Positions 13,749 to 53,484 of a stretch of 64,000 bases of DNA are shown piece after piece. The stretch is from Elusimicrobia bacterium GWC2_64_44 (lineage in GTDB: Bacteria; Elusimicrobiota; Elusimicrobia; Elusimicrobiales; UBA9959). Numbering within the stretch: the first letter of the stretch is position 1; each line of letters begins with the position of its first letter. Under the pieces are notes generated by a model. That model had not been told where the DNA came from and did no database searches. It worked only from the letters and a program-made list of their open reading frames with translations. Location of the stretch: the NCBI GenBank assembly GCA_001799845.1, contig MGUG01000048.1, forward strand, positions 1 through 64,000. The letters are read 5' to 3'. A program made the translations under genes and the position numbers.

Positions 13749-13800
13749 AAAAAAGGGGACAGGCTACTTTTCCGTATGAAAAGTAGCCTGTCCCCTTTTT
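13749..13800. repeat. 22-bp palindrome with GGGGAC ends, also a bidirectional terminator
   Basis: GGGGACAGGCTACTTTT (13755-13771) pairs perfectly with 13779-13795 across a seven-base loop. Flanking A5 and T5 tracts extend the stem to 22 bp. The T-run makes it a good intrinsic terminator in both directions, and it lies between the convergent orphan transposase-domain gene and tolB. The sequence type resembles REP palindromes found with Y1 (RAYT-like) transposases. Its GGGGAC end matches the one at 2401-2491. Confidence 0.85.
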
Positions 13801-15884: not shown

Positions 15885-16424
15885 TTATTTACCTTTGACC
15901 TTGGTCTCGGCCCGGCGGTTGCTCAGCCAACAGTCGTCGGTCTGCTCGGAGCAGAGGGGCTTCTCTTCGCCGTAGGAGATGGTGCCCATCACGCCTTCCG
16001 GCACGCCCAGGCGCACGTAGTAGTCGCGCACTGACTTGGCGCGTTTCTGGCCCAGGGCCAGGTTGTACTCTATGGTGCCGCGGTCGTCGCAGTGGCCTTC
16101 CACCAGCACGGTCCAGTCCTTGCGGGCCTTCAGCAGCACGGCGTTGGCCTGCAGCGTGGCGCGGGACTCTTCGGAAAGTTCGTAGCGGTCGTAGTCGAAG
16201 GTGACGGTCTTGATGGTCTCGAAGGACTGGAAGTCCCCGCCGCGGATGTCGCCCTCGGAAGAGGCGGTGTCGGTGCTCTCGGAGATGTCGAGGCCCGGGA
16301 TAGTGGTGGTGTCGGTGATCATTTCGGTGCCGTCGGCTCCCTTCTTGACGTTCTTCTTGTTGCAGGCGGACAGGGCGAGGGTGAGCGGCAGGACGAAAGC
16401 GAGGAGCAGAATCAGTTTCTTCAT
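15885..16424 (-). CDS. pal: Peptidoglycan-associated lipoprotein Pal
   Basis: An outer-membrane lipoprotein that binds peptidoglycan through an OmpA-like domain and TolB on the Tol side. The 179-residue protein has a lipobox LALSAC, lipidated at Cys21. A short linker is followed by the OmpA domain from about residue 70 (VTFDYDRYELSEESR). The core VLVEGHCDDRGTIEYNLALGQKRA is nearly the Pal consensus and holds the Asp and Arg that grip diaminopimelate. The domain ends with a two-cysteine stretch (PLCSEQTDDCW). First gene of the operon, behind a GGAGG ribosome site. Confidence 0.95.
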   Translation of the reverse strand: MKKLILLLAFVLPLTLALSACNKKNVKKGADGTEMITDTTTIPGLDISESTDTASSEGDIRGGDFQSFETIKTVTFDYDRYELSEESRATLQANAVLLKARKDWTVLVEGHCDDRGTIEYNLALGQKRAKSVRDYYVRLGVPEGVMGTISYGEEKPLCSEQTDDCWLSNRRAETKVKGK

Positions 16425-16534: not shown

Positions 16535-16671
16535 CTGGCGGCCTACCGCAGGGGCAGGACCGCAAAACGCGTTCGCGCACACCGTGCGCTCACTCGGCAC
16601 TCGGCCTCGGCGCTACGCAAGCCTCGGCCTCGCGACGGTTTTGCTTGTCCTACCCCTGCGGTCTCCGCCGG
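16535..16671 (+). repeat. Structured inverted-repeat element, copy A
   Basis: The ends pair imperfectly: ACCGCAGGGGCAGGAC (16545-16560) with 16647-16662, 15 of 16 pairs plus one wobble, extended outward by CTGGCGG/CCGCCGG. Inside is a perfect 6-bp hairpin GCGCAC-acc-GTGCGC at 16575-16589 followed by TCACTC. A second small hairpin with loop CTA (GCG-cta-CGC) lies about 20 bases further on. Copies B and C share these inner parts. It could be a mobile non-autonomous element, a structured RNA or a DNA hairpin target. Confidence 0.75.
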
Positions 16672-16708
16672 TTTCTCCGCTGATACAACATTGCCGCGAA
16701 CAGACGTA

Positions 16709-16837
16709 GGGCTGGGGAGGGTGTGCCTTCGCAGGGGCCTCGCGAGCCCCGAGCTTGCGTAAGCGCGAGGGGCGAGTGACAGAGTGAGGCCACGGTGTGG
16801 CCGAACGTACCCGGAGAAGGCATACCCTCCCCGGCCC
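16709..16837 (-). repeat. Structured inverted-repeat element, copy B (inverted relative to A)
   Basis: GGGGAGGGTGTGCCTTC (16714-16730) pairs with 16816-16832 with one G-T wobble, and GGGC/GCCC extends the stem. Read on the minus strand the core is GTTC-GGCCAC-acc-GTGGCC-TCACTC (hairpin 16788-16802). This is the same as copy A except for two stem base pairs that have both flipped. The following GCTTACGCAAG also matches A (GCTACGCAAG). The outer arms differ in sequence from those of A. Confidence 0.75.
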
Positions 16838-16897: not shown

Positions 16898-17752
16898 TTA
16901 AGCGGAGAAGTAGAGGCCGGCGGAGAGGAGGAGGCCGAAGATGGCCACCAGTTTGGCGGTCTCGGGGACCAGGGCGGAAAAGTCGCCCTTGGAGGCCATC
17001 TTGCAGAGCTTTACCGCCTGCGGGGCGGAGAGAGCGCACAGGATGACCGGCCAGATGCTGCCGAAGGTTAAAGCGAAAAGATACGGGGTAAGTATCAGAA
17101 AGAAATAGAGCCTCTTGGCCCCGCCGGCGCCCAAGATAGAGGCCAGGGTGGAGAATTTGGCTTCCGTATCGCCGCGCACGTCGCGCATGTTATTGGCGTG
17201 CAGGATGCCCACTATCAGCAGCCCCACCGGGATAGAGGCCCACAGGGCTTCGGGCAGGAACTGCCTGGCCTGGATCAGGGCCGTGCCGGACACTATGAAA
17301 GGCCCGAAAGCGAAAAAAATGCCTATGTCGCCCAGCGCGCGGTACTTGTAGGCGAAACCGGTGGCCGTATAGAACCAGGCCAGCGCGAAGCCGGTCGCGC
17401 CCAGCCAGAGCAGGGCCGGCACGTGGTTCTTGTAGACCAGCAGCAGCCCTATGGCCGCCCCGCCGGCGAACAGCCCCAGGGCCGTCTGCAGCATGGCCCG
17501 GGGCGTTATCAGCCCGTCCACCAGGCCGCGGTCGTCGGCGGTCTCCTTGCGGTCCACGCCGTTCCTGAAATCGTAGTAGGTATTGGCCAGGTTGGCTGCC
17601 GAATGCACGGCCAGCGCGGCTATGAAAGTAAGGCAGAAGTCCAGCCAGGAGAAAGCGCCCTGGCGCGAGGCCACCACGGAGCCGAGCACCACCGGCACCA
17701 GGGAGGCCGGCCAGGAGTAGGCGCGCAGAATGATCATCCATTTCTTCATCAT
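16898..17752 (-). CDS. UbiA-family prenyltransferase, probably MenA type
   Basis: A 284-residue integral membrane enzyme that attaches a polyprenyl chain to an aromatic acid, probably 1,4-dihydroxy-2-naphthoate in menaquinone synthesis. Eight or nine hydrophobic segments are visible. The first Asp-rich motif is NLANTYYDFRNGVD (near residue 55), and the second region is around NNMRDVRGD (near residue 185), both needed for magnesium-diphosphate binding. YKYRALGDIGIFFAFGP lies between them, as in MenA. It is 17 bases downstream of a polyprenyl diphosphate synthase, which would supply the chain. UbiA or another branch cannot be excluded because no other quinone genes are near. Confidence 0.8.
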   Translation of the reverse strand: MMKKWMIILRAYSWPASLVPVVLGSVVASRQGAFSWLDFCLTFIAALAVHSAANLANTYYDFRNGVDRKETADDRGLVDGLITPRAMLQTALGLFAGGAAIGLLLVYKNHVPALLWLGATGFALAWFYTATGFAYKYRALGDIGIFFAFGPFIVSGTALIQARQFLPEALWASIPVGLLIVGILHANNMRDVRGDTEAKFSTLASILGAGGAKRLYFFLILTPYLFALTFGSIWPVILCALSAPQAVKLCKMASKGDFSALVPETAKLVAIFGLLLSAGLYFSA

Positions 17753-53272: not shown

Positions 53273-53285
53273 GATTCTATCTCCA

Positions 53286-53484
53286 ACTGTCCCGGTCCGG
53301 CTTGCCGCTCGCTCATAAGCGGCCGCGGCGGAAGAGGGCCTGCGGTCCTCCGCCGGCGGAGAACTCGTCGCGCACACAGTGCGCTCCTCAGACAATCTCC
53401 GCCGCCGCCCTAATGATAGGCGGTCCGCTACGGACCTTGGCCCTGCGGCCTAAAATCGCTCGCAGCAAGCCGGACCGGGACAGT
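53286..53484 (+). repeat. Structured inverted-repeat element, copy C
   Basis: The ends are a perfect 20-bp inverted repeat (53286-53305 with 53465-53484). Inside, GGCGGAGA (53355-53362) pairs with 53396-53403 and encloses the hairpin GCGCAC-aca-GTGCGC (53370-53384) followed by TCCTC. A further hairpin GGTCCG-cta-CGGACC is at 53422-53436. The order and loop sequences (ACA/ACC, then CTA) match copies A and B at 16.5-16.8 kb although the arms differ. It fills most of the 247-bp gap before glnS. Confidence 0.75.

Follow-up and report, generated by a model that had tools for sequence, protein, structure and literature searches.

Integron attC sites are conserved more in structure than in sequence, fold from one strand, and often lie just behind genes, on the antisense strand. 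REPINs, as outlined in excerpts of PMC3116915, are doublets of REP sequences found beside RAYTs. The GTAG and CGTC REPs have stems of 5–13 bp, loops of 2–20 nt and a terminal tag, with alternative complementary residues (PMC3733652, in excerpt). Across 40 genomes, 92 stem-loop families have been catalogued in a survey (PMC2267715, in excerpt), and template switching at palindromes can yield compensatory changes (PMC8794818, in excerpt). As judged by titles and the beginnings of abstracts, none of the open-access papers listed for Elusimicrobia repeats and structured RNAs, or for the concerted evolution of palindromic repeats, describes the family presented here or its behaviour.

The window, a 64,000-nt stretch of DNA from Elusimicrobia bacterium GWC2_64_44 (contig MGUG01000048.1), contains two large hairpins, A and B, in the intergenic site between a Pal-like and a UbiA-like gene (Table 1). 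They represent a dispersed hairpin family and are inverted with respect to each other. Hairpin A matches covariance model R2 with 122.3 bits (E 5.2e-27), being 1 of the 97 training sequences of that model and 1 of the 14 of model R1. Hairpin B matches R1, which was built without any B-type sequence, with 73.7 bits (E 3.6e-14), and R2, which includes B, with 88.0 bits (E 8.4e-19). The fold z-scores of A and B are −4.5 and −5.6, and each hairpin beats 200 of 200 dinucleotide shuffles. The two hairpins are probably large palindromic repeats of an intergenic, lineage-specific family, similar to BIMEs and REPINs or to MITEs, in which the arms are bound to the site and the cores are exchanged; this reading is favoured here with reserve.

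Table 1. Positions of the hairpins, their parts and the neighbouring genes in the window.
Feature	Position	Strand	Basis and remarks
Hairpin A	16537..16669	-	R1/R2 match 16546-16668; outer arm GGCGGCCTACCGCAGGGG / CCCCTGCGGTCTCCGCC; cross arms P2 and P3
P2 hairpin of A, GCGCAC-ACC-GTGCGC, flip-bearing stem	16575..16589		Sequence; covariation columns 126-133/147-152 of A4
P3 hairpin of A, conserved tip GGCTTGCGTAGCGCC (reverse strand)	16598..16631		A4 alignment, mismatch tally
Spacer between hairpins A and B, ~40 nt	16670..16709		Sequence
Hairpin B, diverged type, inverted relative to A	16710..16836	+	Match 16707-16832
Pal/OmpA-like lipoprotein gene, neighbour	15885..16424	-	ORF; named by sequence character, no family search
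UbiA-like prenyltransferase gene, neighbour	16898..17752	-	ORF; named by sequence character, no family search
C copy, between purH- and glnS-like genes (named by sequence character)	53285..53484	-	Inverted repeat I3; 23-nt arms, conserved core ~153 nt

The preliminary description of this DNA had drawn attention to a stem with two adjacent pairs flipped between A and B. The strings it gave are indeed present, GTTC-GCGCAC-ACC-GTGCGC-TCACTC at 16571-16595 of the forward strand in A and GTTC-GGCCAC-ACC-GTGGCC-TCACTC, ending at 16806, on the reverse strand in B, and both hairpins also have the CTA- or CTTA-looped hairpin followed by CGCAAG and the long enclosing arms. The flip is a genuine dimorphism of P2 in an alignment of 97 sequences, where columns 127/151 are G-C in 40 rows and C-G in 34, and columns 130/150 are G-C in 61 rows and C-G in 33. 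This alignment, A4, was made from sequences of the genus and is the basis of R2. R1 derives from alignment A2, in which 14 A-like and solo hairpins were aligned on the reverse strand and a structure was assigned; 12 named hairpins were excluded for insertions, Ns, truncation or false matches, removal of near-duplicates reduced 34 sequences to 25, and 11 B- or C-type or otherwise diverged sequences of the set A1 were omitted. The calibrations of both models are rough.

Covariation is evident in both alignments. In A2, double-sided changes occur at 21 of 47 pairs, compared with 14.0±1.7 after shuffling, and the covariation score is 0.353 against 0.105. In A4, which was fitted to the model and leans towards the assigned structure, double changes occur at 42 of 47 pairs (31.7±1.7 shuffled), 84.1% of the cells are paired (64.3% shuffled), and the covariation score is 0.445, compared with 0.113 for shuffled sequences and 0.037–0.075 when partners are slid. 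The covariation that had been proposed as a check is thus far above both kinds of control. A free RNAalifold prediction on A4 contains 35 pairs, 31 of which show double changes, and double changes were also counted for several pairs of orthologs. On the model strand the hairpin is composed of the arm, GCAAAAC/GTTTTGC, a P3 stem with the tip CTTGCGTA(A)GC, and a P2 stem with the loop GGT. It appears to be constrained by a T shape of outer stem, P2 and P3, such that the shape would be kept rather than the letters.

The stems are interrupted by tandem GA/GA, which can move by one base with compensation; in P3 of A these internal loops lie on the reverse strand, according to the A4 alignment and its mismatch tally. 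Such loops of tandem GA are called sheared pairs. Over the whole of A4, G.A or A.G accounts for 608 of 720 non-standard cells. The preliminary description was right about the fold but had assigned it to the strand as read, where these 2×2 loops appear as UC/UC; because they are GA/GA on the reverse strand, the functional folded strand is, as far as the sequences can tell, most plausibly the reverse. The regular mismatches also provide a built-in control against simple palindrome correction. Template switching during replication makes and maintains hairpins and produces multibase compensatory changes (PMC8794818, in excerpt), and could create and keep complementary arms such as those seen here. 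The earlier claim of a selected fold is therefore supported, although not by compensatory changes alone; the retention of the tandem G.A loops, or their one-base shift with compensation, in place of correction is the better argument. That the hairpins are neutral palindromes, with arm complementarity maintained and changes spread by such switching and with neither a selected fold nor active mobility, is decidedly improbable: palindromic arms can indeed invert, but mismatches should vanish under this process, and the tandem G.A loops persist throughout the family. Nor does the process itself provide spread or core exchange between loci, so that dozens of copies, a family-wide distribution and alike cores at unlinked sites would be unexplained.

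A plain DNA search of the window's own genome (G000) with A yields 55 matches at E≤1, and a search with the whole element yields 69 at E≤0.01. R1 yields 74 matches at E≤0.1, with 150 of 2108 candidates scored, and recovers B-type copies although none is in the model; the genome search suggested at the outset thus reaches well beyond the first copies. The 74 matches fall into 63 intergenic sites, of which 39 lie between tandem genes, 19 between convergent and 4 between divergent genes, and 1 at a contig end. Genes were called with a simple hexamer scorer, all genomes being draft or metagenome assemblies, and no gene is called inside the sites except one low-scoring ORF at L060. A single R1 match is present at 52 of the 63 sites, while paired sites all have the '-+' arrangement (11/11 in G000 and 8/8 in its congener G015) and nested copies occur at L072 and L081. 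Several two-hairpin elements of type A terminate in GGCGGCCTACCGC and GCGGTAGGCCGCC, but not all do, and solo hairpins lack common termini. In L045-L050, hairpin A is part of an element of 330–410 bp, with a second hairpin domain (GGGGACGGCCGGGG.../GGAAACCGCGCAACGGTTTCC) behind it; L143 has a relative of this domain by itself, enclosed in long arms of its own.

R1 matches occur in all 25 of 25 genomes of the genus, own genome included, with at least 8 to at least 85 in each (counts limited by the candidates scored), and in 0 of 16 genomes of another family of the same order. With R2 at E≤0.001, 35 of 294 sampled genomes of the phylum have matches. Thirty-four of these belong to one family, 22 to the genus itself and 12 to four other genera; the remaining one, G290, belongs to another family of the class; across 9 genomes of this family its two copies are the only ones. 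The G290 copies (L300 and L305) have the same core and wholly different arms of 30–40 bp, long, near-perfect and unrelated, with one bulged G in each at about equal distance. Named loci include those of the Elusimicrobia MAGs GWB2_63_16, GWB2_63_22, GWD2_63_28 and STC_50. The exact pattern is absent from IMG/VR, where one narrow pattern was searched, and a viral origin was rejected on this result. Mobility, core exchange and the family-wide distribution had no place in the preliminary description.

A conventional structured RNA, in a 3′ UTR or as a small RNA, would explain the covariation by a cellular RNA function for which the copies are kept, with their dispersal being incidental. The position of the hairpins relative to genes is in part consistent with this. 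Of the 34 sites in G000 with one hairpin between tandem genes, 27 have the model strand antisense to these genes (p 0.0008); the median distance past the upstream stop codon is 31 nt, and divergent sites are few (4/63). In addition, among the clearest vertical pairs between G000 and G015 (L188/L233, L185/L252, L190/L239 and L200/L259), the hairpin is, by eye, better conserved than its flanks in the first two. The strand with the GA/GA loops would, however, be antisense to the mRNA, and the orientation bias, strong in G000, is only a trend in G015 (18 vs 9) and in the other best matches of the genus (12 vs 6) and is absent in other genera (4 vs 6). The 252 predicted flanking proteins reveal no fixed gene association, sites are gained or lost, and Rfam gives no gathering-level match in the window and a best E of 0.56 across nine related loci. 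An RNA function of this kind is therefore unlikely as the reason for the copies. Intrinsic terminators would likewise be expected mostly behind genes and rarely between divergent genes, as the hairpins are, but TTTT follows within 25 nt on the sense side at only 4 of 52 single-hairpin sites, compared with 5 of 52 on the other side, and in the lack of a T-run after the stem this explanation is hardly credible.

The placement behind genes and on the antisense strand, the folding of one strand and the stronger conservation of structure than of sequence are shared with integron attC sites. In the hairpins, conservation is at the tip and variation in the outer stem, the reverse of attC, and the surrounding genes are housekeeping-like rather than cassettes. 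With the GTAG and CGTC REPs (PMC3733652, in excerpt) they have in common the intergenic position, alternative complementary stem residues, head-to-head dimers and modular loops. They differ in forming a three-helix hairpin, and only type A has a GTAG string, located in its outer arm.

The resemblance to REPINs and BIMEs, as these are described in excerpts of PMC3116915, comprises high copy number, extragenic position, inverted doublets at the paired sites, predicted to fold in single-stranded DNA or mRNA, and spread within genomes; the hairpins, however, are branched, ~125 nt long and carry tandem GA loops, whereas the REPs described there measure 20–40 bp. In REPINs proper, the doublets would be moved by a genome-encoded RAYT (Y1, HUH) transposase. 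The doublets found here, intergenic, palindromic and always in the same relative arrangement, would suit such a system, and Y1_Tnp occurs in 27 of the 31 congeneric genomes. Yet 0 of 30 Y1 loci, covering ~1.5 kb on each side and less at contig ends, has an R1 or R2 hairpin (one R2 match with E 1.8 was disregarded). Instead, another repeat, GGGGACAG, occurs 42 times at 15 of the 30 Y1 loci and only 3 times in the 42 hairpin loci L040-L081, which have a similar total length. Moreover, G003, G016 and G024 have at least 56, 43 and 23 hairpin matches, respectively, and no Y1 match. RAYT/Y1 was rejected as the mobiliser on these grounds, and, with single hairpins being common, no RAYT alongside and core and arms having separate histories, it is very improbable that the family consists of REPINs in the strict sense.

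A 23-bp perfect palindrome in the window (13750-13800), AAAAAGGGGACAGGCTACTTTTC, contains GGGGACAG and is probably a true RAYT-associated REP. At 2401-2491, two perfectly inverted 28-bp arms (GGGGACGTTGTTGAG...) flank 35 nt and are possibly another palindromic repeat.

MITE-like features are the ends GGCGGCCTACCGC...GCGGTAGGCCGCC of two-hairpin elements, the lack of coding capacity and the presence or absence of copies between species. No parent transposase, nor any recurring transposase-like family, is found among the 252 flanking proteins. An autonomous element between the distant inverted hairpins of G014, G017 and G022 was also considered and rejected, only ordinary genes lying between them.

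The elements look mobile or in turnover, as the same site can be empty, filled or oppositely filled across species. At the ubiA-pal site, an ortholog of the Pal-like gene is the neighbour in all 8 named loci (8/8), where the UbiA-like protein has relatives of 73–79% identity; the hairpin pair is present in L140 and L144 and gives no model match in the other six, one of which (L143) holds another palindrome. Relative to the window, L140 is reversed. The pair of G044 is flipped between its terminal repeats, with a pal-side flank that is 91% identical, and that of G009 is not flipped. At a uvrC-like/ogt-like site, a solo hairpin is present in G000, G016, G017, G005, G015, G014, G021 and G007 and absent in G044, G009, G003, G006, G041 and G013; L213, L214, L217 and L222 (reverse strand) and L218 and L220 (no left match) are outside this reading. 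Both flanks are common to 19 of the 63 G000 sites and one of 44 G015 hairpin loci. Twelve of these 19 have a single hairpin in both genomes, 7 in the same and 5 in the opposite orientation.

The arms and cores were compared in 31 ortholog pairs of single hairpins from three genomes, after 8 of 39 pairs were dropped in which one member had two hairpins. Arm identity is at least 0.75 in 9 of the 31 pairs (5 sites); for random site pairs (n = up to 400) the 95% level is 0.73 and the maximum 0.79, so that a single pair near 0.75–0.79 does not exceed all random pairs. Eight of the 9 arm-alike pairs include at least one core with a better match at another site of its own genome than in its ortholog, with one tie, and in 6 of the 9 this holds for both cores, in a comparison that weighs a single ortholog against the best among many paralogs and so favours paralogs. 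The strongest case is L233/L286, with arms at 0.96, cores at 0.81 and best own-genome cores at 0.96 and 0.93. L185 and L224 have homologous arms, different cores and opposite orientations. The latter two properties also apply to L184/L273, where arm homology is seen by eye at a measured identity of 0.56, not above random. At several sites, the arms thus appear, from these alignments, to be inherited with the site while the inner core is exchanged within the genome.

The cleanest case of a core that does not follow its site is a second hairpin family, C. Its copy in the window (Table 1), with a fold z-score of −8.05, is likely the third copy of the preliminary description; it scores weakly against the A/B model (15.1 bits, E 0.23) and belongs to a separate family. 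G000 has 18 matches at E≤1e-5, the window copy and 17 further ones. The 17 copies examined in G000 (16 loci and the window) each have their own arm pair of 14–23 nt with at most 2 mismatches, and for 13 copies, four being left out, the mean identity is 0.912 in the core and 0.561 in a 16-nt arm segment. L362 (G000) and L369 (G005), orthologous by their flanks as judged by eye, have 16 of 17 arm bases in common and cores that are 86.3% alike, whereas the core of L362 is 98.7% like that of L364 in G000 and the core of L369 is 98.1% like that of L368 in G005. In a tree of 32 cores, most branches of which are weakly supported, a branch with support 99/97 separates L362 from L369. These orthologous sites with shared arms hold cores of different subfamilies. 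The window C copy and its G044 ortholog share their arms, with mismatches, and 97.4% of the core; therefore arms are not quick to change by descent. In G005, C-family cores lie at contig ends in L382, L383 and L385-L389, as if near-identical cores had broken the assembly. The exchange of C cores could in part reflect misassembly of 150-nt repeats, which is less likely for the 124-nt R1 hairpins.

The unrelated arms of the G290 copies and of the C family had suggested that the arms are an inverted target duplication. This was rejected: the G000 C sites L354 and L359 are empty in both G005 and G015, with neither arm in the empty sites, and shared arms with different cores at orthologs fit site-bound arms better. 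The empty sites could be losses rather than ancestral states. Direct repeats of at least 4 nt flank 0 of 21 C copies, compared with a shuffled mean of 1.7.

On the reading with site-bound arms and exchanging cores, non-coding DNA constrained by the T-shaped hairpin would spread within genomes. While DNA is replicated or recombined, the hairpin may act in single-stranded form, with the GA/GA strand folded; its core could then be copied or exchanged between sites, by template switching or by an enzyme specific for the structure, and may be invertible between its palindromic arms. The default agent would be ectopic conversion or template switching, and a bolder candidate a putative structure-specific recombinase; the hairpins may in addition serve a secondary role at the 3′ ends of mRNAs. 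This explanation is weakened because neither a mobilising gene, among the 252 flanking proteins and the 30 Y1 loci, nor a target duplication at the 21 C copies was found. In addition, many type-A copies are alike in their arms as well as their cores, and therefore arms can also travel with the element. The decoupling of arms, which follow descent, from cores, which follow the genome, is not described for bacterial palindromic repeats in the portions of the literature covered. It makes the mechanism testable, with ectopic conversion, template switching and a shape-recognising enzyme as candidates, and the family provides, in a bacterial lineage of groundwater type, a large natural data set of turnover in sequence under retained pairing, with dozens of copies per genome in dozens of genomes.

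In a more speculative and rather doubtful extension, the tips would be mobile cassettes and palindromic arms of any sequence their fixed docking sites, with the tip being copied, replaced or inverted at many loci and the shape being what is recognised. A second level of the same process would then be represented by a short module, GGAGCGnAGCGACA, in the tips of both hairpin families. The module and its variants are found at several different tip positions, in L077, L081, L192, L198, L249, L276, L277, L363, L367, L372 and other loci; 32 distinct contexts were matched, at least one of which (L307) is likely unrelated.
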